A stretch of DNA of 64,000 nucleotides from Nonomuraea montanisoli (GTDB lineage: Bacteria > Actinomycetota > Actinomycetes > Streptosporangiales > Streptosporangiaceae), in contig NZ_JABWGN010000008.1 in NCBI RefSeq assembly GCF_013363975.1, forward strand, positions 1 through 64,000, read 5' to 3'. Numbering within the stretch: position 1 is the first letter of the stretch; each line of letters begins with the position of its first letter. The notes under the pieces are model-generated. The model saw only the letters and a list, made by a program, of their open reading frames with translations. It searched no databases and had not been told where the DNA came from. The position numbers and the translations under genes were made by a program. Positions 40,352 through 57,990 of the stretch are shown here, in pieces.

Positions 40352-40356
40352 TCTTC

Positions 40357-42102: not shown

Positions 42103-43359
42103 TCAGGAGTGCGGGCGCTCGTCCACGACCTGCACGAGCTTGCCCGTGCGCGGATGGGTGGCCAGCTCGGACGGCCGCACCCACTCGATGATCAGCGGAT
42201 GGACGAACCCCTGCTCCACGCAGTCGGGGTAGAGCGGCCGGGCCGCGTACACGGCCTCGACCAGCCGCTCGGTCAGCTCGGCCGGCGGCTCCCCGGCGCA
42301 GGCCAGGCGGAGCACGAGGCCGTCCTTGCCGTCCCAGCGGCGCTCGACCATCTGCATCCCCGTCATCGCCCCGCCCGGGTCGGCGGCGGCGAGCGCGGCG
42401 CGGACGTCCTCGTACGCCATGGCCACGTTGGCCACCCTGGCGCCCTCGACGGTCCGGCCGACCAGGCGGAAGCGGCTGCACCCGGCGTCCACCCACTCGG
42501 CCAGGTCGCCCACCGGGTAGCGGATGATCGGCATGAGCGTGCGGAACAGGTTCGTGACGACCACGCGGCCGCGCACGCCCGGCTCGGTGATCGGCTCGCC
42601 GGTCACCTCGTCGACGAGCTCGACCACGGTGCGCTCGGGGAACGCCTCGTGCACCCGCACGTCGTCGCCCGGCACCGGGCCGCCGACCAGGCCGGCGTCC
42701 ACCGTGGCGTACCCGAGCGACGCGATCGCCGCCCCCGGGAAGGCCTTGGCCAGGCGCGGGCGCAGGTCGTCGAAGAGCAGGTCGCCGGCGAACAGCAGCA
42801 GCTCCACCGAACGCGCGTCCACCCCCTTGGCGAGCACCGCCTCGGCCACCCCGCCGAGCTTCATCGGGGTGCCCGCCAGCACGTTGACGCCGAAGCCGGC
42901 GATCAGGTCGGCGACGTCCTCGTCCGGCGTGTGGCCGGCGACCGGCAGCCGCACGTTCTCCACCGGCGCGTTGTGCAGGGCGGCCTCGATGTAGAGGAAG
43001 CCGCCGTACAGGTGCCCGGCGAAGAACAGGTTCGCCACCCGGTGTCCGGGCCGGAGCCCGGCCCGGACCATGCCCGCGCCGAACGCGGAGGTGGAGTCGA
43101 AGTGCTCGGTACGGGTCCACGGCGAGACCTTCGGCGCGCCGGTGGTGCCGCCGGAGGTGTACACGCCGGCGTCGGTCAGCGGGCCGGTCAGCAGCCGGTT
43201 GTCCGGCCAGACGTTGGCCGCCCAGAAGGCCGCCTGGTCGATGATCGGGAGCTGGGCGAGGTCCGCGACGCCCTCGGGCACGTCACGGTAGAGCTCGGCG
43301 TAGAAGGGCGAGTTGCGCCGGGCGAAGTCGATCAGGTCACGCAGGGGTCTGGCGGGCAT
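42103..43359 (-). CDS. PaaK/CapK-like adenylate-forming enzyme (first)
   Basis: 418 residues, ATG with AAGGAG upstream. The PaaK-like N terminus (DLIDFARRNSPFYAELYRDV, LPIIDQAAFWAAN), P-loop YTSGGTTGAPKV, and adenylate-binding segment IRYPVGDLAEWVD are visible. Phenylacetate-CoA ligases activate aryl acids with ATP; distant relatives in biosynthetic clusters activate other acids. It is last in the operon, 28 bases after NarK. It is only distantly similar to the second PaaK-like protein of the operon, so the two probably have different substrates. Confidence 0.82.
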   Translation of the reverse strand: MPARPLRDLIDFARRNSPFYAELYRDVPEGVADLAQLPIIDQAAFWAANVWPDNRLLTGPLTDAGVYTSGGTTGAPKVSPWTRTEHFDSTSAFGAGMVRAGLRPGHRVANLFFAGHLYGGFLYIEAALHNAPVENVRLPVAGHTPDEDVADLIAGFGVNVLAGTPMKLGGVAEAVLAKGVDARSVELLLFAGDLLFDDLRPRLAKAFPGAAIASLGYATVDAGLVGGPVPGDDVRVHEAFPERTVVELVDEVTGEPITEPGVRGRVVVTNLFRTLMPIIRYPVGDLAEWVDAGCSRFRLVGRTVEGARVANVAMAYEDVRAALAAADPGGAMTGMQMVERRWDGKDGLVLRLACAGEPPAELTERLVEAVYAARPLYPDCVEQGFVHPLIIEWVRPSELATHPRTGKLVQVVDERPHS

Positions 43360-43387
43360 CCGGTTCTCCTTGCTGCGGATTCGGGGG

Positions 43388-44677
43388 TCAGATGCGGCTG
43401 TGGGCGAGGCTGGGGATCCGGGCCGCCAGCACCTGGCGGCGGTAGAACCACCAGTTGGTGGCCAGGAAGACCGCGTAGCCGCCGAGGAACGCGTACAGCG
43501 CCACGGCGACCGAACCCGTCCGGCTGATCGACATCGCGAAGCTGCGCGGGATGAGGAAGCCGCCGAAGGCGCCGACGGCGGAGGCGATGCCGATGCACGC
43601 CGCGGCCTCCCGCCGGGCGTTCTCCGGGGCGCTGCGGGCGGCGAAGATGGCGGGGATCATCCGGTACGTGGACCCGTTGCCCGTCCCCGAGGCGACGAAC
43701 AGCAGGAGGAACGCCCCCAGGAAGACCGGGAACGCGTGCCACCGGAGCCCCGCCAGCGCGCCCGCCACGCCCGCGGCCATGGCCACGAACGACCACGCGG
43801 TCACCCTGGCTCCGCCGTACCTGTCCGACAGCCAGCCGCCGACCGGACGCGCCAGCGAGCCCACGAGGGGACCCAGGAAGGCGACGTACGGCGCGGCCGA
43901 GCCCGCGAAGGCCGTCCTGACCACCAGCGGGAAAGCCGCCGAGTACCCGATGAACGAGCCGAAGGTGCCGATGTAGAGGAAGGACATCACCCAGGTGTGC
44001 TTCCGCTTCAGGGCGCGCGCCTGGCTGGCGAAGTCGGCCCTGGCCACCGCGAGGTTGTCCATGAAGAAGTACGCGCACAAGGCCGCGGCGGCGATGAGCG
44101 GGACCCACACGAGACCGGCGTGGGCGAGGGCGGCCGCGGCCGTCAGCGGGACCACGAGCTGGACGACCGCCACGCCCAGGTTGCCGCCCGCCGCGTTGAC
44201 GCCCAGCGCGAAACCCTTGCGCCGCTCCGGGTAGAAGTAGGAGATGTTGGCCATGGAGGAGGCGAAGTTGCCGCCGCCCAGCCCGGCCGTCGCCGCGGCC
44301 AGCAGGAACAGCCCGTACGGCGTGGCCGGGTCGGCGGCGAGCACGGCGAGCAGCCCGACCGGCAGGAGCAGCAGCAGCGCGCTGGCCACCGTCCAGTTGC
44401 GCCCGCCGAAGGCCGAGACCGCGAAGGTGTAGGGCAGGCGCAGCGTGGCGCCGACCAGGTTCGGCACGGCCACCAGCCAGAAGAGCTGGTCGACGGTGAA
44501 CGGGAAGCCCGCCTTCGGCAGGAGCACGACCACCGCGCTCCACAGCAGCCACACCGCGAAACCGAGGTGCTCCACGAAGATGGAGAAGACCAGGTTACGG
44601 GTGGCGACGCGGCGCCCGGTCGCCGCCCAGAAGCCGGGGTCCTCGGGGTCCCAGCGGTGGATCCAGCGTCCGCTCAT
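43388..44677 (-). CDS. narK: NarK-family nitrate/nitrite MFS transporter
   Basis: 429 residues, 12 TM. The family signatures are unmistakable: WDPEDPGFWAATGRRVATRN, AVPNLVGATLRLPYTFAVSA (with the TM2 Arg), GLGGGNFASSMANISYFYPE and RRKGFALGVNAAGGNLGVAV. A second Arg lies in VGSLARPVGGWLSDRYG. These correspond to the nitrate signature and the anion-binding arginines of NarK. No nitrate or nitrite reductase gene is in the window, and a NarK inside a biosynthetic operon is unusual. It may supply nitrate/nitrite to the pathway or export a product. Confidence 0.88.
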   Translation of the reverse strand: MSGRWIHRWDPEDPGFWAATGRRVATRNLVFSIFVEHLGFAVWLLWSAVVVLLPKAGFPFTVDQLFWLVAVPNLVGATLRLPYTFAVSAFGGRNWTVASALLLLLPVGLLAVLAADPATPYGLFLLAAATAGLGGGNFASSMANISYFYPERRKGFALGVNAAGGNLGVAVVQLVVPLTAAAALAHAGLVWVPLIAAAALCAYFFMDNLAVARADFASQARALKRKHTWVMSFLYIGTFGSFIGYSAAFPLVVRTAFAGSAAPYVAFLGPLVGSLARPVGGWLSDRYGGARVTAWSFVAMAAGVAGALAGLRWHAFPVFLGAFLLLFVASGTGNGSTYRMIPAIFAARSAPENARREAAACIGIASAVGAFGGFLIPRSFAMSISRTGSVAVALYAFLGGYAVFLATNWWFYRRQVLAARIPSLAHSRI

Positions 44678-44693
44678 CGATGTGTCCCTTCAT

Positions 44694-45080
44694 TCATGAC
44701 GGCCTGCCGGAGACCGCGACGCTCTGGCCGCGGAACTCGGCGACGACCTCGCCGCCGGGACGGCGCACGGTGACGTCGTAGACGCCGTGCCTGCCGTAGC
44801 GGACCCGCTCCTCCGCCTCGGCCAGCAGGTCCTCTCCCGGCGCCGCCGGTCGGACGAAGGTCACCTGGGCGCTGTGCGCGAGGGTGACCGGGCCGCGGCT
44901 GTTGCAGGCGTAGGCGAAGGCGGCGTCGGCGAGCAGGAACACGTAGCCGCCGTGGGCGACGCCGTGCAGGTTGACCATGGCGTCGGTGATCCGCATGCGC
45001 AGCCGGGCCCGTCCGGGGCCGAGGTCCTCCAGCGTGATGCCGAGCGCCCGGCAGGCCGGATCCTCGGTGGGGCGGCTCAC
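44694..45080 (-). CDS. PaaI-type hotdog thioesterase
   Basis: 128 residues, GTG start overlapping the SDR stop. The PaaI-type motif VNLHGVAHGGYVFLLADAAF (with the His-Gly-Gly and Asp) is clear, followed by TLAHSAQVTFVRPAAPGEDL. These enzymes hydrolyse acyl-CoA thioesters, for example of aryl or hydroxyphenylacetyl groups. In this operon it may release a CoA- or carrier-bound intermediate, or clear wrong products. Confidence 0.85.
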   Translation of the reverse strand: MSRPTEDPACRALGITLEDLGPGRARLRMRITDAMVNLHGVAHGGYVFLLADAAFAYACNSRGPVTLAHSAQVTFVRPAAPGEDLLAEAEERVRYGRHGVYDVTVRRPGGEVVAEFRGQSVAVSGRPS

Positions 45081-45928
45081 GCGGGGGCCCCGATCCAGGT
45101 GCGGGCCAGGGCGCGCACGGCCGAGCCGTCGCCGTCGGCGAGCTTGGCCGCCAGGTAGCCGGACACCCAGGCGCTGGTGGGGATGCGGAAGGGCGGGTCC
45201 TCGGTGGTCAGCGCGTCGACGACCACCTCGGCCACCTCCCACTTGGACTGGCCGGCCCTCTCCCAGCCCGCGCCGCGCACCCAGTCGATGTAGTCGGCGA
45301 AGGTCCCGGCGTAGGGGCCGGAGGCGGCCTGAATGGTCTTCCGGTTGATGTCCGGAAAAATCCCGAACCGGGTGTCGGAGACGAAACCGGGCACGACCAC
45401 CGACACCGTCACCCCCTGCGAAGCCGCGACCGGGGCCAGGCTCTCCATGAACCCCTCGACCGCGAACTTCGCCGCCGCGTACGCCTCGTTGAACGGCTGG
45501 CCCACGACGCCGTGCACGCTGCCGAGGCTCACCAGCCGCCCGCCCGAGGTCCGCAGCAGCGGCATCGCCACCCGGCTGACGGCGATCACCCCGAAGAAGT
45601 TGACCTCCAGGTTGGCCCGCAGGGCCTCCAGGGTGGACATCTCCATCGTGGGGTCGAAGTTGGACACGCCCGCGTTGTTGACCAGCGCGTCCAGCCGCCC
45701 GTAGTCCTCCCGCACCCCGCGCAGGCAGGACTCCGCCGACCCGGCGTCGGTGACGTCGAGCCGCCGGACGTCCACCTCGACCCCCGCCTTCGCGGCGGCC
45801 TCCAGCAGCTCGCCGGCCCGGTCCGGGTCGCGCATGGTCGCCACCGTGGCGAACCCGGCCCGCGCCGCGGTGACCGCGGTCGCCAGCCCGATGCCCGACG
45901 AGGTACCCGTGATCAGCACCGTCCTCAT
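45077..45928 (-). CDS. Short-chain dehydrogenase/reductase
   Basis: 283 residues. NAD(P) motif TGTSSGIGLATAV, NNAG motif (LVNNAGVSNFDP), catalytic Ser (VSLGSVHGVVG) and YxxxK (EAYAAAKFAVEG) are all present, so it is a classical SDR. The extended C-terminal part (about 200-283) is typical of larger SDRs. It reduces or oxidises an unknown intermediate of the cluster. A 19-bp duplication (gcgctcccgttcatggcgt type) lies just upstream of its start, at about 45926-45970. Confidence 0.88.
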   Translation of the reverse strand: MRTVLITGTSSGIGLATAVTAARAGFATVATMRDPDRAGELLEAAAKAGVEVDVRRLDVTDAGSAESCLRGVREDYGRLDALVNNAGVSNFDPTMEMSTLEALRANLEVNFFGVIAVSRVAMPLLRTSGGRLVSLGSVHGVVGQPFNEAYAAAKFAVEGFMESLAPVAASQGVTVSVVVPGFVSDTRFGIFPDINRKTIQAASGPYAGTFADYIDWVRGAGWERAGQSKWEVAEVVVDALTTEDPPFRIPTSAWVSGYLAAKLADGDGSAVRALARTWIGAPA

Positions 45929-45979
45929 GACGCGCTCCCGTTCATGGCGTGCTCCCGTTCATGGCGTGCTTCGGGCGGC

Positions 45980-47248
45980 TCATGAGGCGCTCCCCGCCAG
46001 CTCGCCCTCCTGCTCCGCCCGGTCGAGCAGCGGCTGGATGCCCAGCGCGGGCAGGAACGACAGCGCCGCGAGCAGCGTCCCGCCCGCCATGACGACCCGG
46101 GCGGCGTCGAGCACCCCCAGACCGGGCGTGAGCAGCGTGACCGCCGAGCCGCCCACCAGGGCGGCCAGCGGGATCACGCCCCACGTCGCGGTCCGGAAGG
46201 CGGCGTGCATCACGCCCTGGTTCTCCGCCGGCATCCGCGACTGGCGGATGGGCGCGCTGCAGACGTTGATGCAGGACATGAAGAAGCCGTAGCAGCCGAT
46301 CGTCACGCCGATCACGACGGGCGGCGGCAGCGCCGGGGCGGCCAGCACGCCCAGGCCCACCAGGCAGTGCAGCAGCAGCGCCCACGCCATGGTGCGGCCC
46401 AGCCCCAGCCGGGCGCTGATCCTGGGGGCCGCGAGGGCGCCCAGCACGGCTCCCACGGCCGCCGCCGACATCGCGGCGCCGTACGCGGCGACCTGGACGC
46501 CCAGCCCCTGGTAGGCCAGGACGGGCAGGACGGTGACGAAGATCGGGCCGCCCGAGTTCAGCGTCACGGCGGCCACGACCACCCGGCGCAGGACCGGATC
46601 GGCCCAGTTCAGCCGGAACCCCAGCGCCAGCCGCGACCGGACCGAGCCCTGGTGGACCGTCGCGGTGCCCCACGGGCGCATGGAGGTGAAGCAGGCGGCC
46701 GAGACCAGGTAGGTGGCCGCGTCGACGAGCAGGGCCGCCGCGCCGAGCGCGTGGTAGAGCCCCGCGGCGATCGACGGCCCGGCCACCTCCGACACCGTCC
46801 GGCTGCCCTCCAGCCTGGAGTAGGCGTGGACCAGCCGGTCCTGCGGCACGGTGGCGGGCACGGCGACGAGGTAGCCGACGTTGAAGAAGATCGTCGCCCC
46901 GCTGACCAGCGCCACGCAGGCGAACAGCAGCGGCGTGGTCAGCACGCCCGCCCAGTAGGCGATCGGGACGGCCGCGATCGCCGCCAGCCGCACGAGATCG
47001 CAGGCCAGCATGGTGACGCGCTTGTTCCACCGGTCCACCAGGACCCCGGCGATCGGCCCGAGCAGCGGAATGCCCAGATACTGCGCCATGGACACCACGC
47101 CCACCTCGAACGGCGACGCGTCCAACGCGAAGATCATCAGTGTCGGCACCACGAACACGGTGATCCGGTCGCCGACGAGGCTCACCGTCTGGCCGGCCCA
47201 GAAGAGCGTGAACTCCCGCCCCAGGGATCCGGGCAGCCGGAGCCTCAC
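45980..47248 (-). CDS. MFS exporter (DHA3/MefA-like)
   Basis: 422 residues, 12 TM expected, GTG start overlapping the PaaK-2 stop. DHA3-type features include FTLFWAGQTVSLVGDRITVF, MAQYLGIPLLGPIAGVLVDR and WNKRVTMLACDLVRL. These exporters expel macrolides, siderophores and other products, so it is the best candidate for exporting the cluster product and giving self-resistance. The C terminus is slightly acidic and ends before the SDR gene by 51 bases. Confidence 0.88.
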   Translation of the reverse strand: MRLRLPGSLGREFTLFWAGQTVSLVGDRITVFVVPTLMIFALDASPFEVGVVSMAQYLGIPLLGPIAGVLVDRWNKRVTMLACDLVRLAAIAAVPIAYWAGVLTTPLLFACVALVSGATIFFNVGYLVAVPATVPQDRLVHAYSRLEGSRTVSEVAGPSIAAGLYHALGAAALLVDAATYLVSAACFTSMRPWGTATVHQGSVRSRLALGFRLNWADPVLRRVVVAAVTLNSGGPIFVTVLPVLAYQGLGVQVAAYGAAMSAAAVGAVLGALAAPRISARLGLGRTMAWALLLHCLVGLGVLAAPALPPPVVIGVTIGCYGFFMSCINVCSAPIRQSRMPAENQGVMHAAFRTATWGVIPLAALVGGSAVTLLTPGLGVLDAARVVMAGGTLLAALSFLPALGIQPLLDRAEQEGELAGSAS

Positions 47249-48462
47249 GACGCCTCCCTGACCACGAAACTCGCGGTCTTGCCGGTGCGCTCGTTGCTGA
47301 CCAGCGCGTCGACGACCCGTACCCGGAAGGACTCCGGGTCGTGCTGGAAGGCCGTGCTGAGGGTGAAGGTCGCGGCCATCAGGTCGCGCCGCAGCCGCTC
47401 CGCCAGGCCGGGAGGCGCGTCGCCGCCGGCGAGCAGCAGCACCTCGACGGTGGCGACCCGGCCGCGCTGCTCGGTGACGACGATCTGCGCCCGCGAGACG
47501 CCGGCCTCCCGCTCGGCCTGCGCCACGATGTCGTCGACGTGCAGGCCGAGGCCGCGCACCTGCACCACGGAGTCGCGCCGGCCGAGGATCCGCAGCGCCC
47601 TGCCCTCGGCCCCGCACGGGCAGGCGACGAACCGGCCGGCGTCCCCGGTCCGGTAGCGCAGCACGGGGTTGAGCATGTCCGGGTTGAGGGTGGTGAAGTC
47701 CAGCAGCTCGTCCTCGCCCACGTGCACGAGCTGCTCGGGCAGCGGGTGGAACACGTCGGCCGGGCAGTCCGGCGTGTTCGTGCCCGCCACCCAGGTCTCG
47801 GTGCTGCCGAACATGCCCCACCGGCGCGCGTCCGGCGCGACCACGGCCATGTCCTCGTCGAGCTGCGGATGCCACGCCTCGCCCAGCCAGAGCACCTTGC
47901 GCAGGCTCGGGAGGCGGACCCCGGTGGCGCGGGCGTGGGCGAACCACAGCCGCAGCACGCTGGGCGTGCCCCCGAACGCGGTCACGCCCCGGGCCGCGAG
48001 GAACGACAGCCAGTCGCCGTACTCGTCCCTGGTGACCGAGCCGAGCGCGATGACCTCGCAGCCGGACAGGTCGGCGAACGCGGCGGCCAGGAAATGGGCG
48101 CCCCACATGCGGCCGGCGCCCCAGCCGTTGACGAAGACGTCGTCGCGGTCCAGCGGCCGCCACTGGGCGTGCACGCCGGTCATGTAGAAACCGGTGGGGG
48201 CGTGGCCCACCTTGGGCGCGCCGGTGCTGCCGCCGCTCTGGAACAGCCAGGTGGCGCCGCGCTCGGCCCGGGGCCGCAGATGCGCGAGGGCCACGTTCAG
48301 CTCGTCCTTGACCAGCGCCGGCAGCGCGGCCACGTCCCGCAGCGAGAGGATCTTGTCGTGGCCGGCGTAGCGGAGGGCGAGCGCGGGGACGGTCTTCAGG
48401 CGCTCCAGCGTGCGCTGCGGAACGCGCAGGTCGGGGTCGTGGGACAGCGAGAAGTCGGTCAT
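47245..48462 (-). CDS. PaaK/CapK-like adenylate-forming enzyme (second)
   Basis: 405 residues from ATG 48460-48462 (GGAGAGATC upstream). It has a PaaK-type P-loop (FQSGGSTGAPKVGHAPTGFY), a CPCG segment (ACPCGAEGRALRILGRRDSV, also seen in PaaK enzymes) and a C-terminal lid (VQVRGLGLHVDDIVAQAERE). The MWGAHFLAAAFADLSGC stretch and GMFGSTETWVAGTN are in the expected acid-binding positions. It activates an unknown acid. It is coupled to the ATP-grasp gene upstream and the MFS gene downstream. Confidence 0.82.
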   Translation of the reverse strand: MTDFSLSHDPDLRVPQRTLERLKTVPALALRYAGHDKILSLRDVAALPALVKDELNVALAHLRPRAERGATWLFQSGGSTGAPKVGHAPTGFYMTGVHAQWRPLDRDDVFVNGWGAGRMWGAHFLAAAFADLSGCEVIALGSVTRDEYGDWLSFLAARGVTAFGGTPSVLRLWFAHARATGVRLPSLRKVLWLGEAWHPQLDEDMAVVAPDARRWGMFGSTETWVAGTNTPDCPADVFHPLPEQLVHVGEDELLDFTTLNPDMLNPVLRYRTGDAGRFVACPCGAEGRALRILGRRDSVVQVRGLGLHVDDIVAQAEREAGVSRAQIVVTEQRGRVATVEVLLLAGGDAPPGLAERLRRDLMAATFTLSTAFQHDPESFRVRVVDALVSNERTGKTASFVVREAS

Positions 48463-49433
48463 GATCTCTCCAGCCATCGGGTGTGGGCGTCGCGGTAGGC
48501 GGTCCAGCGGGCGCGGGTGACGTCGCGCTGGAGGGCGCGGGCGGGGTCACCCCAGTCCGGCGCGATCACGCCGTCGGGCTCCAGCTCGGAGAACCAGAAC
48601 CGCTCCCCGTCGAAGAGGAAGTCGACGCAGAAGAACGGGATGGGCAGCCTGGCCGCGAAGTACGCGGTGGCCGCGGCCAGCTCGGCCGGGACCTCCGGGA
48701 ACTCCATCGCGCCGCCCCTGCTGGCGTTGGCCACCGGCGAGCCGGGCTGCGGGATCCGTTTCATGACGGCGTACGGCTCGCCGTCCACGACGTAGACGCG
48801 GTAGTCGACCGTGCCGTCACCCAGGTAGGGCTGGATCACCAGCGCGGTGTCGCCGCCCTGCGCCAGGCTGGCCAGGCCGCGGATCTCCTCGGCGTCGCGC
48901 GCCAGGTTCACCCCGCCACCGCCGCACCACCCGGACGGCTTGACGATGACCGGGTACGTCAGCTCGCCCAGCGCCGCCTCGTACAGGTACTTGCCGGTGT
49001 CCCGGCCGGTGCCGATCCGCACGGTCGGGACGGGCGGCACGGGGGAGTCGCGCAGGTACAGCACCGTGGCCAGCTTGTCGTTGGCGATCGGCGACAGCCA
49101 GGCGGGGAACGGCAGGTAGAAGCCGGCCTGCTCCAGCACGGCGTAGAGCGCGTACTGGTTGAAGACGTCCATCGACTGGTACGGCAGGGAGTACAGGGCG
49201 GTGATGAACAGCGTGTCCTCGGGGGTGACCCGCTCCTGGTCCACGTAGACGCGCGGCTTGCCCGTGTCGAGGCCGTCGACCGTCACCGCGTCGGGCGCGT
49301 GCCGGCACCAGGTCAGGCCGAGCTCCTCGGCCACGTCGGCGTACATGTCCCAGAAGAAGGGGTGCCACATCGCCTGGGCCCGCGTCGACTCCCGGTCCGG
49401 GAAGATCCAGCACATGCGGCGCAGCGAGCTCAT
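48459..49433 (-). CDS. ATP-grasp (RimK-like) ligase
   Basis: 324 residues, ATG overlapping the KamA stop. The glutathione-synthase/RimK-like ATP-grasp fold is supported by PIANDKLATVLYLRD, TYPVIVKPSGWCGGGGVNLA (ATP lid region), ALVIQPYLGDGTVDYRVYVV, ASRGGAMEFPEV and FCVDFLFDGERFWFSELEPD (metal-binding acids). Such enzymes join a carboxylate, via acyl phosphate, to an amine. Its likely role is to form an amide between cluster building blocks. Confidence 0.82.
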   Translation of the reverse strand: MSSLRRMCWIFPDRESTRAQAMWHPFFWDMYADVAEELGLTWCRHAPDAVTVDGLDTGKPRVYVDQERVTPEDTLFITALYSLPYQSMDVFNQYALYAVLEQAGFYLPFPAWLSPIANDKLATVLYLRDSPVPPVPTVRIGTGRDTGKYLYEAALGELTYPVIVKPSGWCGGGGVNLARDAEEIRGLASLAQGGDTALVIQPYLGDGTVDYRVYVVDGEPYAVMKRIPQPGSPVANASRGGAMEFPEVPAELAAATAYFAARLPIPFFCVDFLFDGERFWFSELEPDGVIAPDWGDPARALQRDVTRARWTAYRDAHTRWLERS

Positions 49434-50797: not shown

Positions 50798-52488
50798 GCG
50801 GCGAACAGCGCCGCGTGCCGGGTGCGGAGCTCGCGCTTGAGCACCTTGCCGGTGGGGCCGAGCGGATAGTCCTCGCCGGTCCGCGCGATGACCACCGCGC
50901 CCAGCGTGGCCAGGCCGGCCTCGGCCAGCGCCTTGTTGGCCCTGTCCCGCACCTCCTCGGCGGTGGCGTCCGCGGCGTCCGCCTGCAGCCGCACCACGGC
51001 GATCGGCCGCTGCCCCTCGCCCGGCGGCCCCGGCACGCCGACGACCGAGCAGTCCTGCACCAGGTCCGCGCAGTCGGCGATGAGGACCTCCTCGACGGGC
51101 AGGCTGTAGACCGGCCCGGCCAGGGTGTCGATGACGTCCACGGTGCGGTCGAGGTGGTAGAACCTGCCCTCGGCGTCGCGGCGGGCCACGTCGCCGGTCA
51201 GCCAGAAGCCGTTGAGTTCGAAGCTCTCGGTCAGGCGCTGGTCGTTCCAGTAGCCGGGGGTGCGGGAGGGGGTGATCACTCCCAGCAGGCCGACGGTGCC
51301 GTCGGGCACCTCCTCGCCGTTCTCGTCCAGCACCGCGGCCCTGATGACCGCGTCCTGCGCCCTGCCCACGCAGCGGTCGTCGCGCGGCGTCTCGGGCGTG
51401 AACACCATGCCGAACAGCGCCATGCCCATCTCGGACGACCCCAGCCCGTCGATGAACTGCGAGCCCGGCAGCGGCTCGCCGGCCGAGGCGCCGGCGGGCA
51501 GCAGCCACGGCTTGATCAGCCCGGCCGGACGCTCGCCGAGCTGGACCAGCCGCCGGATGTGCCCGAAGTGAGCGGAGTCGCCGGTGTTGAACCACGAGTG
51601 CACCCGGGCCGCGCCCTCGACCGGCAGCTCGCCGGTGGCCAGCTCGACGAACGTGCGCGGGAACGAGGCGACCATGGTGGGCTGGAACGCCTCCATCACC
51701 GGCTCCACCACGGCGCGCCGCCAGTCCGACATCACCACGGTCGGCAGGCCGAGCAGGACCGCGGTGAGGAAGTAGCTCAGGCCCCCCGCGTGCGTGTGCG
51801 GCATGAGCGACATGAGCCGGTCGTACGGCTCCGCCGGGAAGCGCTCCATCCGGGCCTGCTTGCCGTCCCAGAAGGACCGGTGGCCGAGCGTCGTGGACTT
51901 CGGCACGCCGGTGGTGCCGGAGGAGTGGATCAGAGCGACGATGTCGTCCGGCTCGTGCCGGTGGGGGTAGGACTCCGGCAGCGTGCCCGAGGCGACGTCG
52001 AAGGCGCGGACCTCGGAGGCGAGCGCGACGAACCGCGGCCGGTTCTGCGGGTCGTCGCGGTAGGCGAGCTGCAGCCGGGTGGTGTCGTCGGCGACGACGC
52101 CCACCACGCCCACGTGGTTGAGGTAGCGGATCATGACGTCCGGCCGCATCGCGTCGTTGACCATCGCCGGGACGGCGCCGAGCGCGGTGAGCGCCAGGAA
52201 GTGGATCAGCGGCTCCAGGCCCTCGGCCACGACGATCGCGACCGGGTCGCCCGGCCGCACGCCGTTGGCGTGGTACCAGCGGGCGTAGCCGTCGCGCATC
52301 CGGGCCAGGTCCACCAGGCTGTGGCCGCGCAGCACGACCTGGCCGCGGTGGTCGAGACGGTGGGTGTGGACGAACGGCACGTCCCGGTGGGGGTTGCCCT
52401 CCAGGGCGTGGTCGAGGAAGTTGCCGGCGCCCAGGCCGGGCTCGGTCATGAACCGCCGGCGGACGGGCAGGGGAGCGATCGAGGTCAT
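50794..52488 (-). CDS. ANL-superfamily acyl-CoA/AMP ligase
   Basis: 564 residues, ATG overlapping the amine oxidase stop. ANL motifs: ALIHSSGTTGVPKSTTLGHR (P-loop), QFIDGLGSSEMGMALFG, WLTGDVARRDAEGRFYHLDR, and catalytic Lys in PLGPTGKVLKRELR. The N-terminal half resembles long- and medium-chain acyl ligases, although the substrate cannot be read. It might activate a fatty or aryl acid, or, as in some diazo pathways, use ATP for nitrite activation; the last is speculation. Confidence 0.85.
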   Translation of the reverse strand: MTSIAPLPVRRRFMTEPGLGAGNFLDHALEGNPHRDVPFVHTHRLDHRGQVVLRGHSLVDLARMRDGYARWYHANGVRPGDPVAIVVAEGLEPLIHFLALTALGAVPAMVNDAMRPDVMIRYLNHVGVVGVVADDTTRLQLAYRDDPQNRPRFVALASEVRAFDVASGTLPESYPHRHEPDDIVALIHSSGTTGVPKSTTLGHRSFWDGKQARMERFPAEPYDRLMSLMPHTHAGGLSYFLTAVLLGLPTVVMSDWRRAVVEPVMEAFQPTMVASFPRTFVELATGELPVEGAARVHSWFNTGDSAHFGHIRRLVQLGERPAGLIKPWLLPAGASAGEPLPGSQFIDGLGSSEMGMALFGMVFTPETPRDDRCVGRAQDAVIRAAVLDENGEEVPDGTVGLLGVITPSRTPGYWNDQRLTESFELNGFWLTGDVARRDAEGRFYHLDRTVDVIDTLAGPVYSLPVEEVLIADCADLVQDCSVVGVPGPPGEGQRPIAVVRLQADAADATAEEVRDRANKALAEAGLATLGAVVIARTGEDYPLGPTGKVLKRELRTRHAALFAA

Positions 52489-53810
52489 GGTGTTTCCCTC
52501 CAGGTGATCTCTGCGGCCACGCGGTGACCTGACCGGATGGCGCCTTCCATGAGGCCGAAGAACTCGGTGCTGGTCTCGGTGCCGGCCCAGTGCACGCGCC
52601 CGTGCGGGGCGGCCAGCCCGGGGCCGAGGCGCAGCCAGTCGCCCGGGCCGAACAGGGCCGCGTAGCAGCCCCGGCTGTGCGGCTCGTTGACCCAGTCGGT
52701 GAGGTGGAACGCGATCGGCGGCGGCAGCTCGGGGAACAGCCGCGCGGCCTGCGCCACGGCCAGCTCGCGCTGCTCGGCGGCGGGGAGCGCGGCGTAACGG
52801 ATGGCCTCGCCGCCGGTGACGAAGCCGGTGAGCACGCCCGCCCGCCCTCCGGCGGGGGAGTCGTCCACGGTGGACAGCAGGGGACCCTCGGCGCTGACCG
52901 ACCAGCCGGACAGGCCCAGCTCGCGCCAGAGCGGCGACGGGTAGACCAGGTGGACCTTCACCGCGCAGCCCGGGCCGGTCGCCGGGGTGGAGCGGGGCGC
53001 GGGCGGCCCGGGCCGGTGGTCGATCGCGTCGGCGAGCACCGGGGGGACCGCCACGACGGCGTGGGTGCCCCGCACCGGGCCGCGCGGGGTGGTGGCGGTG
53101 ACGCCGCCGGCGTCCTGGTGGAGCGCCCGGACCGGCTCGCCCAGGCGTACCCGGTCGCCCAGGGCGGCGGCCAGCCGCTCGCAGAGCTGATGCGCGCCGC
53201 CGGCGATCCGCCACTCCTGCGCCCCTCCCTCGAACGCGTTGAGGTAGCGGATCCCGCCGCCGGAGCGCAGGTAGAAGGCCATGTGCAGGACCGACACGCG
53301 GGCCGGGTCGGCGGCCATCATCTCGCCGAGGAACAGCGGGAAGAACAGCCGCGCGTCCGGGTGGCGCAGGTGCTCGGCCGCCCACCGCTCCGCGGTCACG
53401 CCGTCGAGCCGGGCGGCGTCCTGCGTCAGCCAGGGGGCGTCCGGCCGGACGAGGCGGGTGACCTCCTCCAGCGCGTCGAACATCTCGCCCAGCGCGACCG
53501 CGGACAGCGGCGGGAACCGGCCGGGCCGGGTCCGGCCCTCGTCGCGGAGGGCGAACCGGCCGGCTCCCGCCACACTGGCCGGCGTGGTCTTCAGGTCCAG
53601 CTCGGCGAGCAGGGCGGTGAGCGCGGTGTGCCGCTCGCCCAGGTACGCGGCGCCCGCGTCCACCCAGCCGCCCGGCTCGACCTCCAGGCCGCGCGTCCGG
53701 CCGCCCACCTGCTCCCGCGCCTCCAGCACGGTGACCTCGGCGCCGCGCGCGACCAGGTCGGTCGCCGCGGTCAGCCCGGCCAGCCCGGCTCCCACGACGA
53801 CGACGTTCAC
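52485..53810 (-). CDS. Flavin amine oxidase (MAO-like)
   Basis: 441 residues, GTG start overlapping the carrier-protein stop. FAD-binding N terminus VVVVGAGLAGLTAATDLVAR and EAREQVGGRTRGLEVEPGGW. The C-terminal FAD segment is VHWAGTETSTEFFGLMEGAI, as in monoamine and putrescine oxidases. It would oxidise an amine to an imine. Position next to the carrier protein suggests that a carrier-bound beta-lysine residue is oxidised, perhaps with ring closure. No signal peptide, so it acts in the cytoplasm. Confidence 0.85.
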   Translation of the reverse strand: MNVVVVGAGLAGLTAATDLVARGAEVTVLEAREQVGGRTRGLEVEPGGWVDAGAAYLGERHTALTALLAELDLKTTPASVAGAGRFALRDEGRTRPGRFPPLSAVALGEMFDALEEVTRLVRPDAPWLTQDAARLDGVTAERWAAEHLRHPDARLFFPLFLGEMMAADPARVSVLHMAFYLRSGGGIRYLNAFEGGAQEWRIAGGAHQLCERLAAALGDRVRLGEPVRALHQDAGGVTATTPRGPVRGTHAVVAVPPVLADAIDHRPGPPAPRSTPATGPGCAVKVHLVYPSPLWRELGLSGWSVSAEGPLLSTVDDSPAGGRAGVLTGFVTGGEAIRYAALPAAEQRELAVAQAARLFPELPPPIAFHLTDWVNEPHSRGCYAALFGPGDWLRLGPGLAAPHGRVHWAGTETSTEFFGLMEGAIRSGHRVAAEITWRETP

Positions 53811-54025
53811 GCCGCCTCCGCGATCTTCTTGGAAAGGGCGTTCGGGGTGGGCGCGTCGAGGAGGTCGTCGAATTCCAGCTCCACCCCGGTGGCACGGGCG
53901 ACCGCGCTCAGCACGCGCGTGGCGAGCAGCGAATCCCCGCCCATGACGAAAAAGTCGGAATCAGCGTTGACCTCGGAAATTTCCAGCACTTCGCGGAATA
54001 CAGCGGATACGGCGTCGACATTCAC
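53807..54025 (-). CDS. Free-standing peptidyl carrier protein
   Basis: 72 residues. The phosphopantetheine-binding Ser32 lies in DFFVMGGDSLLATRVLSAV, the typical GGDSL motif of NRPS carrier proteins. GTG start with AGGAGA about 10 bases upstream. It lies 13 bases after the adenylation domain gene and overlaps the amine oxidase gene, so the amino acid is probably loaded by the first and processed by the second while bound. Confidence 0.93.
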   Translation of the reverse strand: MNVDAVSAVFREVLEISEVNADSDFFVMGGDSLLATRVLSAVARATGVELEFDDLLDAPTPNALSKKIAEAA

Positions 54026-54038
54026 GAAAGGGGTCTCC

Positions 54039-55577
54039 TTAAACGGCGGCCGACTGGTATCGCCGGTGCGATCCGGCGCGGTCGACTTTCCCGCTCGCCG
54101 TGTGGACGAGCTCGGGTACGACGGTGATCCGGTGGGGGACGAGATGAGCCGGGACGTGCTCGCGCAGGTAGGCGAGGACCTCCCCGGCCAGGGACGCGGT
54201 CATGGCGGGGGAGCGGGGCACGACGTAGGCGGCGAGCGTCGTGTGGCCGGCGACCGGGACGCCCACCACGGCCACCGCCCCCACCCGCGGGTGGCCGGCG
54301 ATCTGGGCCTCCACCTCGCCCGGGTCCACCCGGACGCCGCGGACCTTGAGCTGGTGGTCCAGCCGTCCCTCGTGGAGGAGCGCGCCGTCCGGGCGGCGGC
54401 TGACCCGGTCGCCGGTGCGGAACCACCGCCGGGGGCCGTCGCCCGGTCCGCCGTCCTCGGGGGCGGCGTCCAGCTCGGTGAACCGCTCGGCGGTGGCCTC
54501 CGGCCGGTCCCGGTACCCCAGGGCCAGCGCGGGGCCGCCGACCAGCAGCTCGCCGTCCTCGGTGATCCGCTCGACGACGTGGGGGAGGGGCCGGCCGATC
54601 GGCACCCGGTCGTCCGGCCCGCCTTCCAGCGGGCCTGCCGGTCCGCTTTCCGGGGTGTGCGGGCCGTGCAGGTCGACGGCGTGCGTGATGAGCGTGGTCT
54701 CGGTGCACCCGTACGTGTTGAGCAGGCGGACGGCGCCGAGGCCGAGGGCGCGCCAGTCGGCCAGCCGTACCGGGTTGACCGCCTCGCCGCCGACGACGAC
54801 CAGCCGCACCGACGGCGGCAGGGCGGCCCGCTCGGCCGTCAGGTGATGGACCAGCTCGTGCCAGAACGCGGTGGGCAGGTCCAGGACGGTGATCCGCTCG
54901 GCGTCGATCATCCGCAGCATCCGGCGGAGCGACCCGGAGTAGGCGTGGTCGTGGAAGACCAGCGTCGCGCCCGAGGTCAGCGCGGGCAGGATCTCCTCCA
55001 GGCAGGTGTCCCAGTTCAGGGACGCGAACTGGAGCACCCGGTCGTCCGGGGTGATCCCGAACAGCTCGCGCAGCCCGGCCGTCACGACCGAGATCGCGCC
55101 CCGCGGCGTCACCACCGGCTTCGGCTCGCCGGTGGAGCCGGAGGTGAACAGGATGTACGCGGGGTCGTCCGCCGCGACCGCCGTGAAGCCCGCCGCGGGC
55201 GGATCGGCCGGACCGGGAAGCCGCGTCAGGCGCACCCCGGGCGGCACGGCGGAGCCCGGCTCGCCGATCACCGCGCGGCAGCCGCTCGCCGCGATCATCG
55301 CCTCCCGGCGCGGCCACGGGTACGCCGGATCGATCGGGCAGTAGACCCCGCCGGCCGCCAGCACGCCGAGCAGCGCGGCCACGGTGTCCGGCGAACGCGA
55401 CGTCAGCACCCCGACCACTCCGGGATCCGGGCCCAGCCGGCGCGCCGTCGCCCGGACCCAGGCGTCCAGTTCCGTGTACGTGACCGTCCGGTCATGGCGC
55501 GTCACGGCCGGGCGGTCCGGATGAAGGCGCACCGTTTCGGAAAACGCTTTCATCACATCACGAAATGGATAGGACAC
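54039..55577 (-). CDS. Stand-alone NRPS adenylation domain
   Basis: 512 residues from GTG 55575-55577 (AAAGGGG upstream). NRPS core motifs A3 (YILFTSGSTGEPKPVVTPRG), A5 (NTYGCTETTLI), A7 (RWFRTGDRVSRRPDG), A8 (LDHQLKVRGVRVDPGEVEAQ) and A10 (TASGKVDRAG) are present; no condensation or carrier domain is fused. By hand alignment to GrsA the pocket residues read about D-T-E-D-V-G-T-L-I-K, with acidic residues at the 239 and 278 positions, as suits a basic side chain such as lysine or beta-lysine. It should load the adjacent carrier protein. Confidence 0.88.
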   Translation of the reverse strand: MSYPFRDVMKAFSETVRLHPDRPAVTRHDRTVTYTELDAWVRATARRLGPDPGVVGVLTSRSPDTVAALLGVLAAGGVYCPIDPAYPWPRREAMIAASGCRAVIGEPGSAVPPGVRLTRLPGPADPPAAGFTAVAADDPAYILFTSGSTGEPKPVVTPRGAISVVTAGLRELFGITPDDRVLQFASLNWDTCLEEILPALTSGATLVFHDHAYSGSLRRMLRMIDAERITVLDLPTAFWHELVHHLTAERAALPPSVRLVVVGGEAVNPVRLADWRALGLGAVRLLNTYGCTETTLITHAVDLHGPHTPESGPAGPLEGGPDDRVPIGRPLPHVVERITEDGELLVGGPALALGYRDRPEATAERFTELDAAPEDGGPGDGPRRWFRTGDRVSRRPDGALLHEGRLDHQLKVRGVRVDPGEVEAQIAGHPRVGAVAVVGVPVAGHTTLAAYVVPRSPAMTASLAGEVLAYLREHVPAHLVPHRITVVPELVHTASGKVDRAGSHRRYQSAAV

Positions 55578-55776
55578 ACTTACCCCTTTCCATAGATGGC
55601 CACATACGGCGCGATACGCAATCCGAAGGCTGTTGCGGTACGAATGCGGGGAAATCGTGTTCATGGTGTTGGAGAGCACTGGATGCGAGCTTGTTTGGGA
55701 CAGGATGCGCGCTGGACTTCATCCGGTATCTCGCGCATCACGGGGTGTTACAACGATGTTTCAGACGGAGAGCGAT
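55578..55776. promoter_or_regulatory. Divergent promoter region of the biosynthetic operon and its SARP gene
   Basis: This 199-base gap is clearly lower in GC than its surroundings (AT-rich near 55560-55680 and 55730-55770), as actinomycete control regions often are. It must hold the promoters for the leftward operon and the rightward regulator. Short open frames on the plus strand here have no coding character. I could not fix SARP heptamer repeats with confidence. Confidence 0.5.
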
Positions 55777-57990
55777 ATGTCAGCTGAAACGGACCTGGCA
55801 GGTCTGGAGCAGGCCGTGAGAATCGGGCTCCTGGGAACGGTCCGGGCGTCGCGGGGGCGCCACGAGATCCCGCTCGGCACACCGCGCCAGCGCGCCGTGC
55901 TGGCGCTGCTCGCCCTCGACGCCGGACGTACGGTGTCGATGGAGCGGCTGATCGCGGCGCTGTGGGGGGAACGGCCGCCGGCCGGCGCCCGGGGCCTGGT
56001 GCAGGGGTACGTGTCGCGGCTCCGGCAGGTCCTGGCCAGGGCGGGGGTCACGATCGTCCACGGCCCGCAGGGCTACCTGCTGGGCCTCGCGGCCGAGCAG
56101 GTCGATCTGCACGAGTTCCGGCTGCTGGTGGCGCGGGCCCGGGCCACGGACTCGGACGAGGCCCAGGCGGCGGGGATGCGCAGCGCCCTGGAGCTGTGGC
56201 GCGGGGAGCCGCTGACCGGCATCACCGGCGGGGAGCTGCTGGACCGGCTGCGCGACACGCTGAGCGAGGAGCGGCTGGCCGTCACCGAGGAGTGCCTCAA
56301 CGCCGAGACCCGCGCCGGCCGTGACGCGGTGCTCATCCCCGAGCTGATCGCGCTGGTGGCGACGCACCCCCTGCGCGAGGGGCTGGTGGGCCTGCTCATG
56401 GTGGCGCTGTGCCGGGTCGGACGCCGCGCCGACGCGTTGGACCGTTACGAACACACCCGCCGGCACCTCAGCGAGGAGCTGGGGCTGGACCCCGGACCCG
56501 AGTTGCGCCAGCTCCGCCAGCGCATCCTGCGCGGCGACGTGCGCATGGCCCGCGCCCCGCGCCCGGCGCCCGTCGCGCACGCGGCCGTGCCCGCCCAGCT
56601 TCCGCCCGAGGCCGGGCCGTTCACCGGCCGTCACCAGGAGCTGAGCGTGCTCGACGAGATCGCGGTCCGCGGCGAGACGGCCGCCGTCGCCATGGTGACC
56701 GGCGCGGGCGGCGTCGGTAAGACCGCGCTGGCCGTGCACTGGGGCCACCGGGTCCGCTCGCTGTTCCCCGACGGCCAGCTCTACGTCGACCTGCACGGCT
56801 GCTCGCCGGAGCGGCCCCTGCCGCCGATCGAGGCGCTGGGCCGGCTGCTGCGCGCGCTGGGCGTGCCGCCGGAACGGGTGCCGGACACCGTGGAGGAGGC
56901 GAGCGCCGCCTACCGCAGCCTGCTGGCCGACCGGCGCGTGCTGGTGGTCCTGGACAACGCCGGCGGCGTCGACCAGGTCCGCCCGCTCCTGCCCGGCGGC
57001 CGGCGCTGCGTCACCGTCGTCACCAGCCGCGACCGGCTGACCGGCCTGGTCGCCCGCGACGGCGCGATCCCGGTGCCGCTCGGGATGCTCATGCCCGAGG
57101 AGGCGGTCTCGCTCTTCGACGCGATCCTCGGCAGCCGCCGATTAGCGGCGGAACCCGCCGCCGCCCTCGAACTCGCCCGGCTCTGCGGGTACCTGCCGCT
57201 GGCGCTGCGGATCGCCGCCGCCGCCATCGTCGCCGCGCCGGGCAGGGACATCACCGGACAGGCACGCCGGCTCACCCGGGCCCGGCTGTCCATCCTCGAC
57301 CTCCACGACGACCCCCACGCCGCGGTCCGCGGCGCCTTCGACCTGTCGTACCGCCGCCTCGATCCGCCGTCCCGGCGGTTGTTCCGGCTGCTGGGGCTGC
57401 TGCCCTGGCCGGCCTTCACCCGCGAGGAGGCCGCCGCGCTGATCGGCGCCGGCGCCGAGGCGGCCGACCGGCTCCTGAGCCGGCTCTGCGCCGCCCACCT
57501 GGTCGATGAGTGCGGGACCGGCCGTTACACCTTCCACGACCTGATCAGGGAGTACGCGCGCGAACGGGCCTTCGCCGAGGACAGCCCCGCCGCCCGGGAC
57601 CACGCCCTGGCCGCCCTGCACGCCCGGCCCGGCGAGGAGCCGTCCGCGCCCCGCCCCGGCGACGGCCGCCTCACCGTCGTCACGGGCATCGTCCCCGACG
57701 CGCCCGTACGGCCGCCCGCCCTGACGGACGGCGCCCTGTCGCTGGCCGAGGCGTCGCCGGCGGCCCGGGTGGACGGTGCTCTGTCGCTGGCGGAGGTGCC
57801 TGCGACGGCCCGGGTGGACGGCGCCCTGTCGCTCGCCGAGGCGCCACCCGCCGCCCGGGTGGACGGTGCTCTGTCGCTCGCGGAGGCGCCACCCGCCGCC
57901 CGGGCGGCCGGGCAGCACGCCGGCGGGAGCGTGGACCCGCTCGCGCGCTGGGTCGCCATCCGGCGGGCCGGGGTGAGGATGGTCTTCTAG
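55777..57990 (+). CDS. SARP-NB-ARC regulator lacking TPR domain (probable cluster activator)
   Basis: 737 residues from ATG 55777 (GGAGAGCG upstream). Domains: OmpR-like HTH (about 12-100; LGTPRQRAVLALLALDAGRT), BTAD (about 105-250), and NB-ARC (about 275-600; FTGRHQELSVLDEIA, VTGAGGVGKTALAVHWGHRV, VLVVLDNAGG, LPLALRIAAAAIV). After a short winged segment (YTFHDLIREYARERAF) the protein ends in four 15-residue repeats (VDGALSLAEAPPAAR) and a 30-residue tail. The TPR array of AfsR-type proteins (about 1000 residues) is missing. Adjacent and divergent position marks it as the probable activator of the operon. Confidence 0.87.
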   Translation: MSAETDLAGLEQAVRIGLLGTVRASRGRHEIPLGTPRQRAVLALLALDAGRTVSMERLIAALWGERPPAGARGLVQGYVSRLRQVLARAGVTIVHGPQGYLLGLAAEQVDLHEFRLLVARARATDSDEAQAAGMRSALELWRGEPLTGITGGELLDRLRDTLSEERLAVTEECLNAETRAGRDAVLIPELIALVATHPLREGLVGLLMVALCRVGRRADALDRYEHTRRHLSEELGLDPGPELRQLRQRILRGDVRMARAPRPAPVAHAAVPAQLPPEAGPFTGRHQELSVLDEIAVRGETAAVAMVTGAGGVGKTALAVHWGHRVRSLFPDGQLYVDLHGCSPERPLPPIEALGRLLRALGVPPERVPDTVEEASAAYRSLLADRRVLVVLDNAGGVDQVRPLLPGGRRCVTVVTSRDRLTGLVARDGAIPVPLGMLMPEEAVSLFDAILGSRRLAAEPAAALELARLCGYLPLALRIAAAAIVAAPGRDITGQARRLTRARLSILDLHDDPHAAVRGAFDLSYRRLDPPSRRLFRLLGLLPWPAFTREEAAALIGAGAEAADRLLSRLCAAHLVDECGTGRYTFHDLIREYARERAFAEDSPAARDHALAALHARPGEEPSAPRPGDGRLTVVTGIVPDAPVRPPALTDGALSLAEASPAARVDGALSLAEVPATARVDGALSLAEAPPAARVDGALSLAEAPPAARAAGQHAGGSVDPLARWVAIRRAGVRMVF
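57724..57903. repeat. 45-bp tandem repeat, 4 units, in frame near the SARP gene 3' end
   Basis: Units at 57724, 57769, 57814 and 57859 encode DGALSLAEAPPAAR with small changes; the last two differ by very few bases. They stand where the TPR region of AfsR-like proteins would begin. Confidence 0.93.

Follow-up and report, generated by a model that had tools for sequence, protein, structure and literature searches.

The closest described relatives of the gene cluster reported here are the cremeomycin, avenalumic acid and p-coumaric acid diazo clusters, whose ANL diazotase-type enzymes (CreM, AvaA6 and CmaA6) act with nitrite as the nitrogen donor and an aryl amine as the substrate, and of which the named examples contain the CreE and CreD genes (PMC11705231). 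In the triacsin pathway, Tri17 couples nitrite to an aliphatic hydrazone, and according to the same source the reactions tested for the CreM/AvaA6/Tri17 family comprise diazotisation and the forging of bonds to a nitrogen atom (PMC11705231). We analysed a 64,000-nucleotide stretch of Nonomuraea montanisoli DNA (hereafter, the window), in which 12 leftward genes (positions 42103-55577, minus strand) form an operon opposite a gene for a Streptomyces antibiotic regulatory protein (SARP). The operon combines an ANL enzyme of this family with predicted genes for the formation and loading of beta-lysine and with a NarK-type nitrate/nitrite transporter. We consider it rather probable that the operon specifies a nitrite-dependent, N-N bond-forming beta-lysine pathway fed by nitrate or nitrite uptake, and it probably makes a beta-lysine-derived small molecule containing an N-N bond.

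The operon shares the ANL diazotase-type family with the CreM, AvaA6 and CmaA6 clusters but differs from them in its beta-lysine genes, in that no CreE-CreD-like pair was found, and in the presence of NarK with or without the assimilatory nitrate reductase NasC. The solved structures nearest to the operon ANL enzyme include Tri17, but at 269 bits only, and the 12 operon genes include no polyketide synthase (PKS) or hydrazine synthetase of the kind used for triacsin. The beta-lysine modules of streptothricin and viomycin share a lysine 2,3-aminomutase, a stand-alone adenylation (A) domain and a carrier protein with the operon, and they are not known to include an amine oxidase or a nitrite-activating enzyme. 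The negamycin cluster (NegJ) has beta-lysine, an N-N bond and an ATP-grasp enzyme in common with the operon, but its N-N bond is made by a heme enzyme (PMC12154649); a negamycin-like pathway was rejected because no NegJ/KinJ-type heme enzyme was found among the 12 operon genes in Pfam and NCBIfam searches. As for nitrogen supply, the 8-azaguanine cluster also places a nitrate/nitrite-type transporter of the major facilitator superfamily (MFS), 8-AzgB, in an N-N-building cluster, but its nitrogen is ascribed to a nitric oxide synthase, and the text available of that report names no nitrate reductase or CreM-type enzyme (PMC7674941). Two assimilatory nitrate reductases have been named as bionitration candidates in the genome of a pyrrolomycin producer (PMC4722265), and a further near precedent is a remark on alanosine (PMC12154649). 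The NarK-like 8-AzgB, the pyrrolomycin nitrate reductases and the alanosine remark are the nearest precedents. No published description of the operon's gene set was recognised in the open-licence PMC literature, and the novelty in evidence lies in the nitrate cassette within the operon and in the beta-lysine context.

Family and relatives of the ANL enzyme

The coordinates of the 12 genes were confirmed by our own gene call and a frame check, with no internal stop in any of the 12 reading frames. Seven of the 11 gene junctions are 4-bp overlaps, and the remaining gaps measure 13, 51, 16 and 28 bp. The G+C content of the window is 70-79% (2-kb steps), and its genome is 9.76 Mb in size. Domains of the operon proteins were assigned by Pfam and NCBIfam profile searches, which returned no condensation or PKS domain among the 12 genes. 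The original prediction, made by a model from the sequence, had described 12 leftward, mostly overlapping genes facing a SARP gene, had assigned each of the 12 to a protein type and had noted the absence of a condensation domain and a PKS, all of which was borne out.

The ANL enzyme (50794-52488; this and all following operon genes are on the minus strand) matches best, at 359 bits, the NCBIfam model NF058622 (3-aminoavenalumate ATP-dependent diazotase AvaA6), the next model scoring 160 bits, and is a predicted ATP- and nitrite-dependent enzyme forming an N-N (diazo or nitroso) group. In the window's genome, the next match to NF058622 reaches only 63 bits, and none of 14 control genomes was matched at E <= 1e-60. 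The top four PDB entries (8ztz, 9xb8, 9bq0 and 8tf7) score 269-296 bits, whereas everything else is at or below 75.5 bits; these entries group as 8ztz/9ijf and 9xb8/9xbs, followed by 9bq0 and 8tf7, both of which are Tri17 (PMC11705231). A GDxxHxxH motif, derived in the present analysis, is present in all 24 rows of the CreM/AvaA6/Tri17 family and in none of 28 other acyl-CoA ligases, and is also visible in the PDB alignments. In a tree of 52 rows, the ANL enzymes of 15 operons and nine relatives are separated from the 28 other acyl-CoA ligases by a branch with 100/100 support. By kinship, the enzyme therefore belongs with the nitrite-activating enzymes of the CreM/AvaA6/Tri17 family, although it is not an AvaA6 equivalog. 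An AlphaFold model of the enzyme (15 sequences) was too poor (pLDDT 54.6) and was not used.

The original prediction had called this protein an ANL ligase, and its placement in the ANL superfamily stands, but the model, PDB, motif and tree results point to the CreM/AvaA6/Tri17 family and not to a generic ligase. Its proposal that bond formation rests on the ATP-grasp and ANL enzymes appears to be half right, since the ANL enzyme more likely makes the N-N bond. Generic ANL features are nevertheless retained, including the C-terminal lysine region GPTGKVLKR, the lysine of which we take to be catalytic, and these would also suit a pathway to a beta-lysine amide or ester without N-N chemistry, with the ANL enzyme acting as an ordinary acid-activating ligase and with NarK serving nitrogen nutrition or unrelated export. 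The ANL sequence, the GDxxHxxH motif and the tree argue against such an assignment, which we regard as improbable.

Among the tree relatives, L146 and L147, which lie in plasmid clusters that we label cremeomycin-like, adjoin CreE- and CreD-like genes, and the CreM relatives of L147, L154 and L156 lie near genes for 3-dehydroquinate synthase II, which we take as a sign of aryl-amine synthesis; no such gene was seen in the stretch of L146 examined. The 12 operon genes of the window contain no aryl-amine biosynthesis gene, including 3-dehydroquinate synthase II, and the substrate of the ANL enzyme should therefore differ from aryl amines. The same comparison bears on another explanation, namely diazotisation-dependent deamination or other cryptic use of nitrite, in which the diazo group is lost and the product is a beta-lysine-derived carbon skeleton without an N-N bond. 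CreM relatives can indeed serve products of that kind, as in the avenalumic and p-coumaric acid pathways (PMC10777205, PMC11705231) and in the crexazone pathway (PMC11429834), which counts against an N-N-containing product. AvaA6, the closest curated model, acts in a diazo-losing route (PMC10777205), the CreM homologue CrxM serves compounds without a detected diazo group (PMC11429834), and the operon does contain a short-chain dehydrogenase/reductase (SDR). However, none of the 12 genes is for aryl-amine biosynthesis, in contrast to the neighbourhoods of the L147, L154 and L156 relatives, and the operon SDR is classical by its family matches, whereas AvaA7 has been likened to NADPH-dependent sugar epimerases (PMC10777205). 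We consider this explanation unlikely, if less so than an ordinary ligase.

The relatives themselves showed several other features. L146 and L147 are located on Streptomyces linear plasmids, and their CreM/CreE/CreD-like clusters are accompanied by repair genes of the Ada and O6-methylguanine methyltransferase types, perhaps as self-protection against a diazo product. CreM-like genes were also found on plasmids of Gram-negative bacteria, i.e. Sinorhizobium medicae (L154) and Klebsiella michiganensis (L156); the former plasmid was typed as conjugative and carries a nonribosomal peptide synthetase (NRPS)-like adenylation-domain gene beside the CreM-like gene.

Distribution of the operon and its nitrate supply genes

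A search with KamA, the predicted lysine 2,3-aminomutase of the operon, in one genome per species yielded 583 relatives, of which the best 80 loci were analysed. The ANL enzyme (73-86% identity) is present in 15 of these 80 loci, and in 14 of the 15 the core of A domain, peptidyl carrier protein (PCP), amine oxidase, ANL enzyme and KamA is accompanied by further operon genes. Seven of the 15 operons are from Kitasatospora and Streptomyces (L008, L023, L026, L028, L030, L037 and L050), and three are rearranged (L005, L024 and L058). In the order to which the window belongs, the ANL enzyme was detected at E <= 1e-150 in 15 of 345 genomes and in five of 70 genera. Thirteen of the 15 genomes contain an operon of the window type; G281 has a rearranged operon without PaaK2, and the fragment in G019 was left out. 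A second operon copy in G239 is of the same rearranged type as that of G281, also without PaaK2. The gene order thus recurs across other genera and is more than a chance arrangement.

In the fifteenth ANL-bearing locus, L058, the core and a thioesterase gene adjoin a PKS. The five-gene core may be a portable module within the larger pathway from nitrate to an N-N bond, also set beside a PKS in Streptomyces humidus, although we hold this view with slightly more reserve than conviction. In S. humidus (L058 and L183-L185; contig 30 of G071), the core stands next to a one-module PKS (KS-AT-DH-ER-KR-ACP), and its neighbourhood also includes an anthranilate-synthase-type gene, a diverged PaaK-like gene (31%) and small genes that by eye resemble chorismate mutase and prephenate dehydrogenase genes. 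In Nonomuraea aurantiaca, a TnpB-like gene (by eye) is located between the SDR and thioesterase genes (L001, 15679-16908), and NarK is missing.

The NarK gene of the window (43388-44677) lies between the thioesterase and PaaK2 genes, and the family membership of the ANL enzyme would provide a reason for its presence in the operon. Its product, a NarK-type nitrate/nitrite transporter, scores 283 bits to TIGR00886, below the cut-off of 311.7, and 332-333 bits to the Escherichia coli NarK/NarU-type (NarK/nitrite extrusion protein) structures, and is an operon-specific paralogue: the genome has two NarK genes, and the second copy, which is 60% identical, lies beside NasC on another contig (C5). 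In the 13 window-type operons, the thioesterase-PaaK2 interval holds NasC, an NADH reductase and NarK in four (G008, G128, G371 and G376) and NarK alone in five (G000, which is the window's genome, G022, G025, G026 and G244). For the NasC copy of L003, the NasC model gives 745 bits and that of formate dehydrogenase 535 bits, while the curated NasC cut-off of 1100 was reached neither by this copy nor by any match in 18 genome entries; the partner NADH reductase in L003 resembles the N-terminal half of NirB (309 bits, under the cut-off). A NasC match at E <= 1e-220 was obtained in all 18 entries, which represent 17 genomes, as G022 and G063 give identical places. The four operon copies of NasC are 80-87% identical to one another and 68-71% identical to nine other copies, and the nine operon copies of NarK are 77-96% identical to one another and 54-60% identical to eight others. 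In S. saharense (G061 = G376), the one NarK match of the genome and its one strong NasC are both those of the operon, the second-best NasC match having E = 6e-41. On these identities, the operon NarK and NasC form groups of their own, located at one fixed site. Such operon-specific lineages, separate from the second nitrate-assimilation locus in the genome, also speak against the ANL enzyme being an ordinary ligase with an unrelated NarK, an assignment that the absence of the nitrate cassette from part of the operons would favour.

The CreE and CreD queries scored 1011 and 662 bits, respectively, on the control W01, and no side-by-side CreE-CreD-like pair was found in the 18 genome entries, as judged mainly by the distance between matches. 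Adjacency was used as the criterion because identity can fall to 53% for a CreD-like gene that neighbours a CreE-like gene (L159). In the window's genome, the CreE- and CreD-like matches are on separate contigs (44 and 3, respectively), in G026 they are about 41 kb apart, and G064-G070 gave no CreD match at E <= 1e-10. Four CreD-like matches were inspected, in G000, G061 (one of three matches), G062 (one of two) and G071, and all are in pca-like operons, the neighbours being named by eye from sequence starts. An ANS (aspartate-nitrosuccinate) pathway elsewhere in the window's genome was considered and rejected, as the CreD-like match at G000:C3:19300 lies in such a pca-like operon. Judged by these gene neighbourhoods, the operon is not among the ANS-fed (CreE/CreD) clusters. 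In Kitasatospora mediocidica (L153; G065), a genome without a CreD match, a CreE-like gene (45%) is located beside metK-, methyltransferase- and sugar kinase-like genes (by eye).

The beta-lysine module

KamA (49430-50797), a predicted radical SAM lysine 2,3-aminomutase with an NCBIfam match and no Pfam match, retains the CxxxCxxC motif and is homologous to the solved lysine 2,3-aminomutase 2a5h (151 bits). It scores 162 bits to the curated AblA model, far under the cut-off of 525, but the same model gives only 153 bits to the KamA orthologue in a lysine-degradation locus (L006), indicating that the model misses this KamA branch. Orthologues with 70-78% identity are found in loci containing lysine 5,6-aminomutase, KDD and KAL genes. 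Among 65 KamA loci without the ANL enzyme, genes within 10 kb encode the alpha and beta subunits of lysine 5,6-aminomutase in at least 25 loci each, L-erythro-3,5-diaminohexanoate dehydrogenase in at least 28 and 3-aminobutyryl-CoA ammonia lyase in at least 19; these counts, from simple linkage clusters, are lower bounds, and the L006 members of the clusters exceed their NCBIfam cut-offs. As these neighbours encode the steps of lysine degradation that follow beta-lysine, the KamA branch most likely forms beta-lysine. At the 80% level, 15 alignment positions tell the KamA rows of 15 operons apart from those of 64 solo loci. A substrate other than lysine was considered, since the aspartate of RGVND, which we take to be the lysine-binding aspartate of the clostridial enzyme, aligns with T in the window KamA, and was set aside; this site also varies in KamA orthologues of lysine-degradation loci (A in L006), so that it leaves lysine as an admissible substrate. 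L006 and similar loci (at least 25 of the 65) combine kamA with kamD- and kamE-like genes, a set of the lysine-fermentation type, although they belong to actinomycetes, which are usually regarded as aerobic.

The stand-alone NRPS A domain (54039-55577; Pfam AMP-binding, 174 bits) has the specificity code DTEDVGTLIK on GrsA numbering and is predicted to activate beta-lysine. The code DTE(D/N)(V/I)GT(L/M)IK is conserved in all 17 rows (16 operons and L078), and in NCBIfam the domain comes closest to the myxochelin synthetase MxcG (319 bits versus a cut-off of 2300). It is followed by a stand-alone PCP with a GGDSL site (53807-54025; PP-binding, 57 bits) and by a flavin amine oxidase of the monoamine/putrescine oxidase type (52485-53810; PF01593, 224 bits), whose best solved relative is the monoamine oxidase 8p84 (280 bits), followed by cyclohexylamine oxidase, MAO-A/B and putrescine oxidase. 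The amino groups of beta-lysine at C3 and C6 make it a substituted putrescine, so that the simplest expectation is oxidation with subsequent cyclisation, which would yield a pyrroline-type unit. The original prediction had proposed that lysine is converted to beta-lysine, loaded on the carrier protein and oxidised by the amine oxidase; the KamA orthology, the beta-lysine-like A-domain code and the type of the oxidase agree with each of these steps, and the sequence from lysine through beta-lysine and the carrier protein to the amine oxidase is, at the level of gene identities, well supported.

An imine or enamine formed by the oxidase, as predicted, would have a nucleophilic alpha carbon, and together with the nitrate cassette this would allow nitrite to be used for a nitro, oxime or furazan-like group, by C-nitrosation of the enamine carbon, instead of an N-N bond. 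In published tests, the family has carried out diazotisation and has formed bonds to nitrogen (PMC11705231), and we regard C-nitrosation as very improbable.

A quartet of A-domain, PCP, oxidase and KamA genes without the ANL gene was found in a Mycolicibacterium metagenome-assembled genome (L078, 6800-11400), where genes for a family 2 glycosyltransferase, an epimerase, a GH16 protein and an Acetyltransf_6 protein are nearby; a beta-lysine-derived glycan decoration is possible.

Tailoring genes, regulation and proposed pathway

The RimK-like ATP-grasp ligase (48459-49433; PF08443, 33 bits) has no PDB sequence match at E <= 0.001, but its AlphaFold model (pLDDT 75) has RimK as the best Foldseek match (TM 0.63), and this predicted fold is in line with amide formation. 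PaaK1 (47245-48462) is a PaaK-like or A-domain-like adenylate-forming enzyme (PF00501, 50 bits) with weak PDB matches. PaaK2 (42103-43359) is a PaaK-like adenylate-forming enzyme that scores 80 bits to NF045666 and 63 bits to the PaaK model, all below the cut-offs, 25.7 bits to PF00501 (under the Pfam cut-off of 29.9) and 38-45 bits to PaaK structures; it also faintly resembles the BagE/FevW model (31 bits, below the cut-off), which we take to represent ester-forming enzymes. The remaining genes encode a predicted MFS exporter (45980-47248; PF07690, 94 bits; TIGR00900, 146 bits, below the cut-off) that resembles drug-efflux antiporters in NCBIfam, a classical SDR oxidoreductase (45077-45928; PF00106, 154 bits) and a PaaI-type hotdog thioesterase (44694-45080; TIGR02286, 143 bits, above the cut-off of 118.9).

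The SARP/AfsR-type regulator (55777-57990, plus strand) contains BTAD (133 bits) and NB-ARC domains and scores 497 bits to the AfsR model. In the start check, the most likely start of the A-domain gene was GTG at 55577 and that of the SARP gene ATG at 55777, leaving a putative divergent promoter region of 199 bp (55578-55776). A SARP gene occupies the same divergent position in the Nonomuraea and Streptosporangium operons, with 70-72% identity in L001, L002, L003, L004 and L007, but is not there in the Kitasatospora and Streptomyces operons. Its constant place in the sister operons supports pathway-linked control by the SARP, in agreement with the dedicated activator envisaged by the original prediction.

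On the other side of the operon, a second, short SARP gene and an unassigned gene at 40357-41427 (together 39572-41427) adjoin PaaK2, an arrangement shared by L172 and L178, which are the closest two relatives, whereas a DUF6461 gene (41429-42025) was not found in these two. Just past the second SARP lies a gene for a third SARP-type regulator (36402-39434; 1010 aa, with BTAD, NB-ARC and TPR), and iron-siderophore-type uptake genes (Peripla_BP_2, FecCD and an ABC ATPase) are located at 30127-33104.

By analogy, the operon would operate as a nitrite-dependent pathway of the CreM type that has been grafted onto a beta-lysine carrier-protein module. In the proposed pathway, KamA would convert L-lysine to beta-lysine (3,6-diaminohexanoate), with which the A domain would charge the carrier protein, and the amine oxidase would act on the carrier-bound 1,4-diamine to give, most likely, a cyclic imine or enamine of the pyrroline type. 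NarK would import nitrate or nitrite, and nitrate would be reduced by the assimilatory NasC, whose gene some relatives have inside the operon and the window's genome has at another locus. The CreM/Tri17-type ANL enzyme may then adenylate nitrite and move NO onto a nitrogen of the unit, which would produce an N-nitroso group, a diazo group or a derived N-N group. The ATP-grasp enzyme, PaaK1 and PaaK2, the SDR and the thioesterase would then tailor the unit and join it to another acid or amine, the MFS protein would export the product, and the SARP would turn the operon on. Gene identities, conservation, the A-domain code, KamA orthology, the ANL family, the nitrate cassette and the finding of no CreE-CreD-like pair are supported by sequence, and from them we infer the use of nitrite by the ANL enzyme, its substrate, the order of the steps, the regulation and the product.

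Further observations weigh against a nitrite-dependent pathway fed by its own nitrate genes. The ANL enzyme misses the equivalog cut-off of NF058622 by a wide margin (359 versus 975 bits), so that its substrate should differ from that of AvaA6, and at a loose E-value the model matched ordinary ligases in 12 of the 14 control genomes. The nine non-operon relatives in the tree had been selected for their resemblance to the query, and the tree therefore shows kinship and not function. Four of the 13 window-type operons (G239, G248, G357 and G358) have neither NarK nor NasC in the interval, indicating that the nitrate cassette is dispensable, and G248 is a close relative (ANL 96% identical) that lacks NarK. 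NarK and NasC were likewise not found in the loci examined of the seven Kitasatospora/Streptomyces operons or in L005, L024 and L058. Proteins of the NarK type are also able to export nitrite. The A-domain code was read on presumed GrsA numbering and against a presumed beta-lysine reference code, DTEDVGTMVK, for which a literature search returned no paper. The CreE and CreD queries were labelled from a plasmid record by our own reading, without a curated model.

We put forward more tentatively, and with a little less than even confidence, that the operon has acquired a nitrate importer and an assimilatory nitrate reductase of its own, which in place of the ANS route feed a CreM-family enzyme, and that this enzyme acts there on a carrier-bound aliphatic amine derived from beta-lysine and gives an undescribed class of N-N compounds. 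Of 134 ava-like diazotase clusters, 72, or about half, lack CreE/CreD, and their source of nitrite was left open in the report describing them (PMC10777205). The operons with NarK, four of which also contain NasC and the NADH reductase, suggest that dedicated nitrate uptake and reduction may serve clusters without CreE/CreD. Action of a CreM/Tri17-type enzyme on an aliphatic beta-lysine-derived amine, if true, would broaden enzymatic N-N chemistry, and the operon marks a conserved family of predicted metabolites in Streptosporangiaceae, Kitasatospora and Streptomyces.

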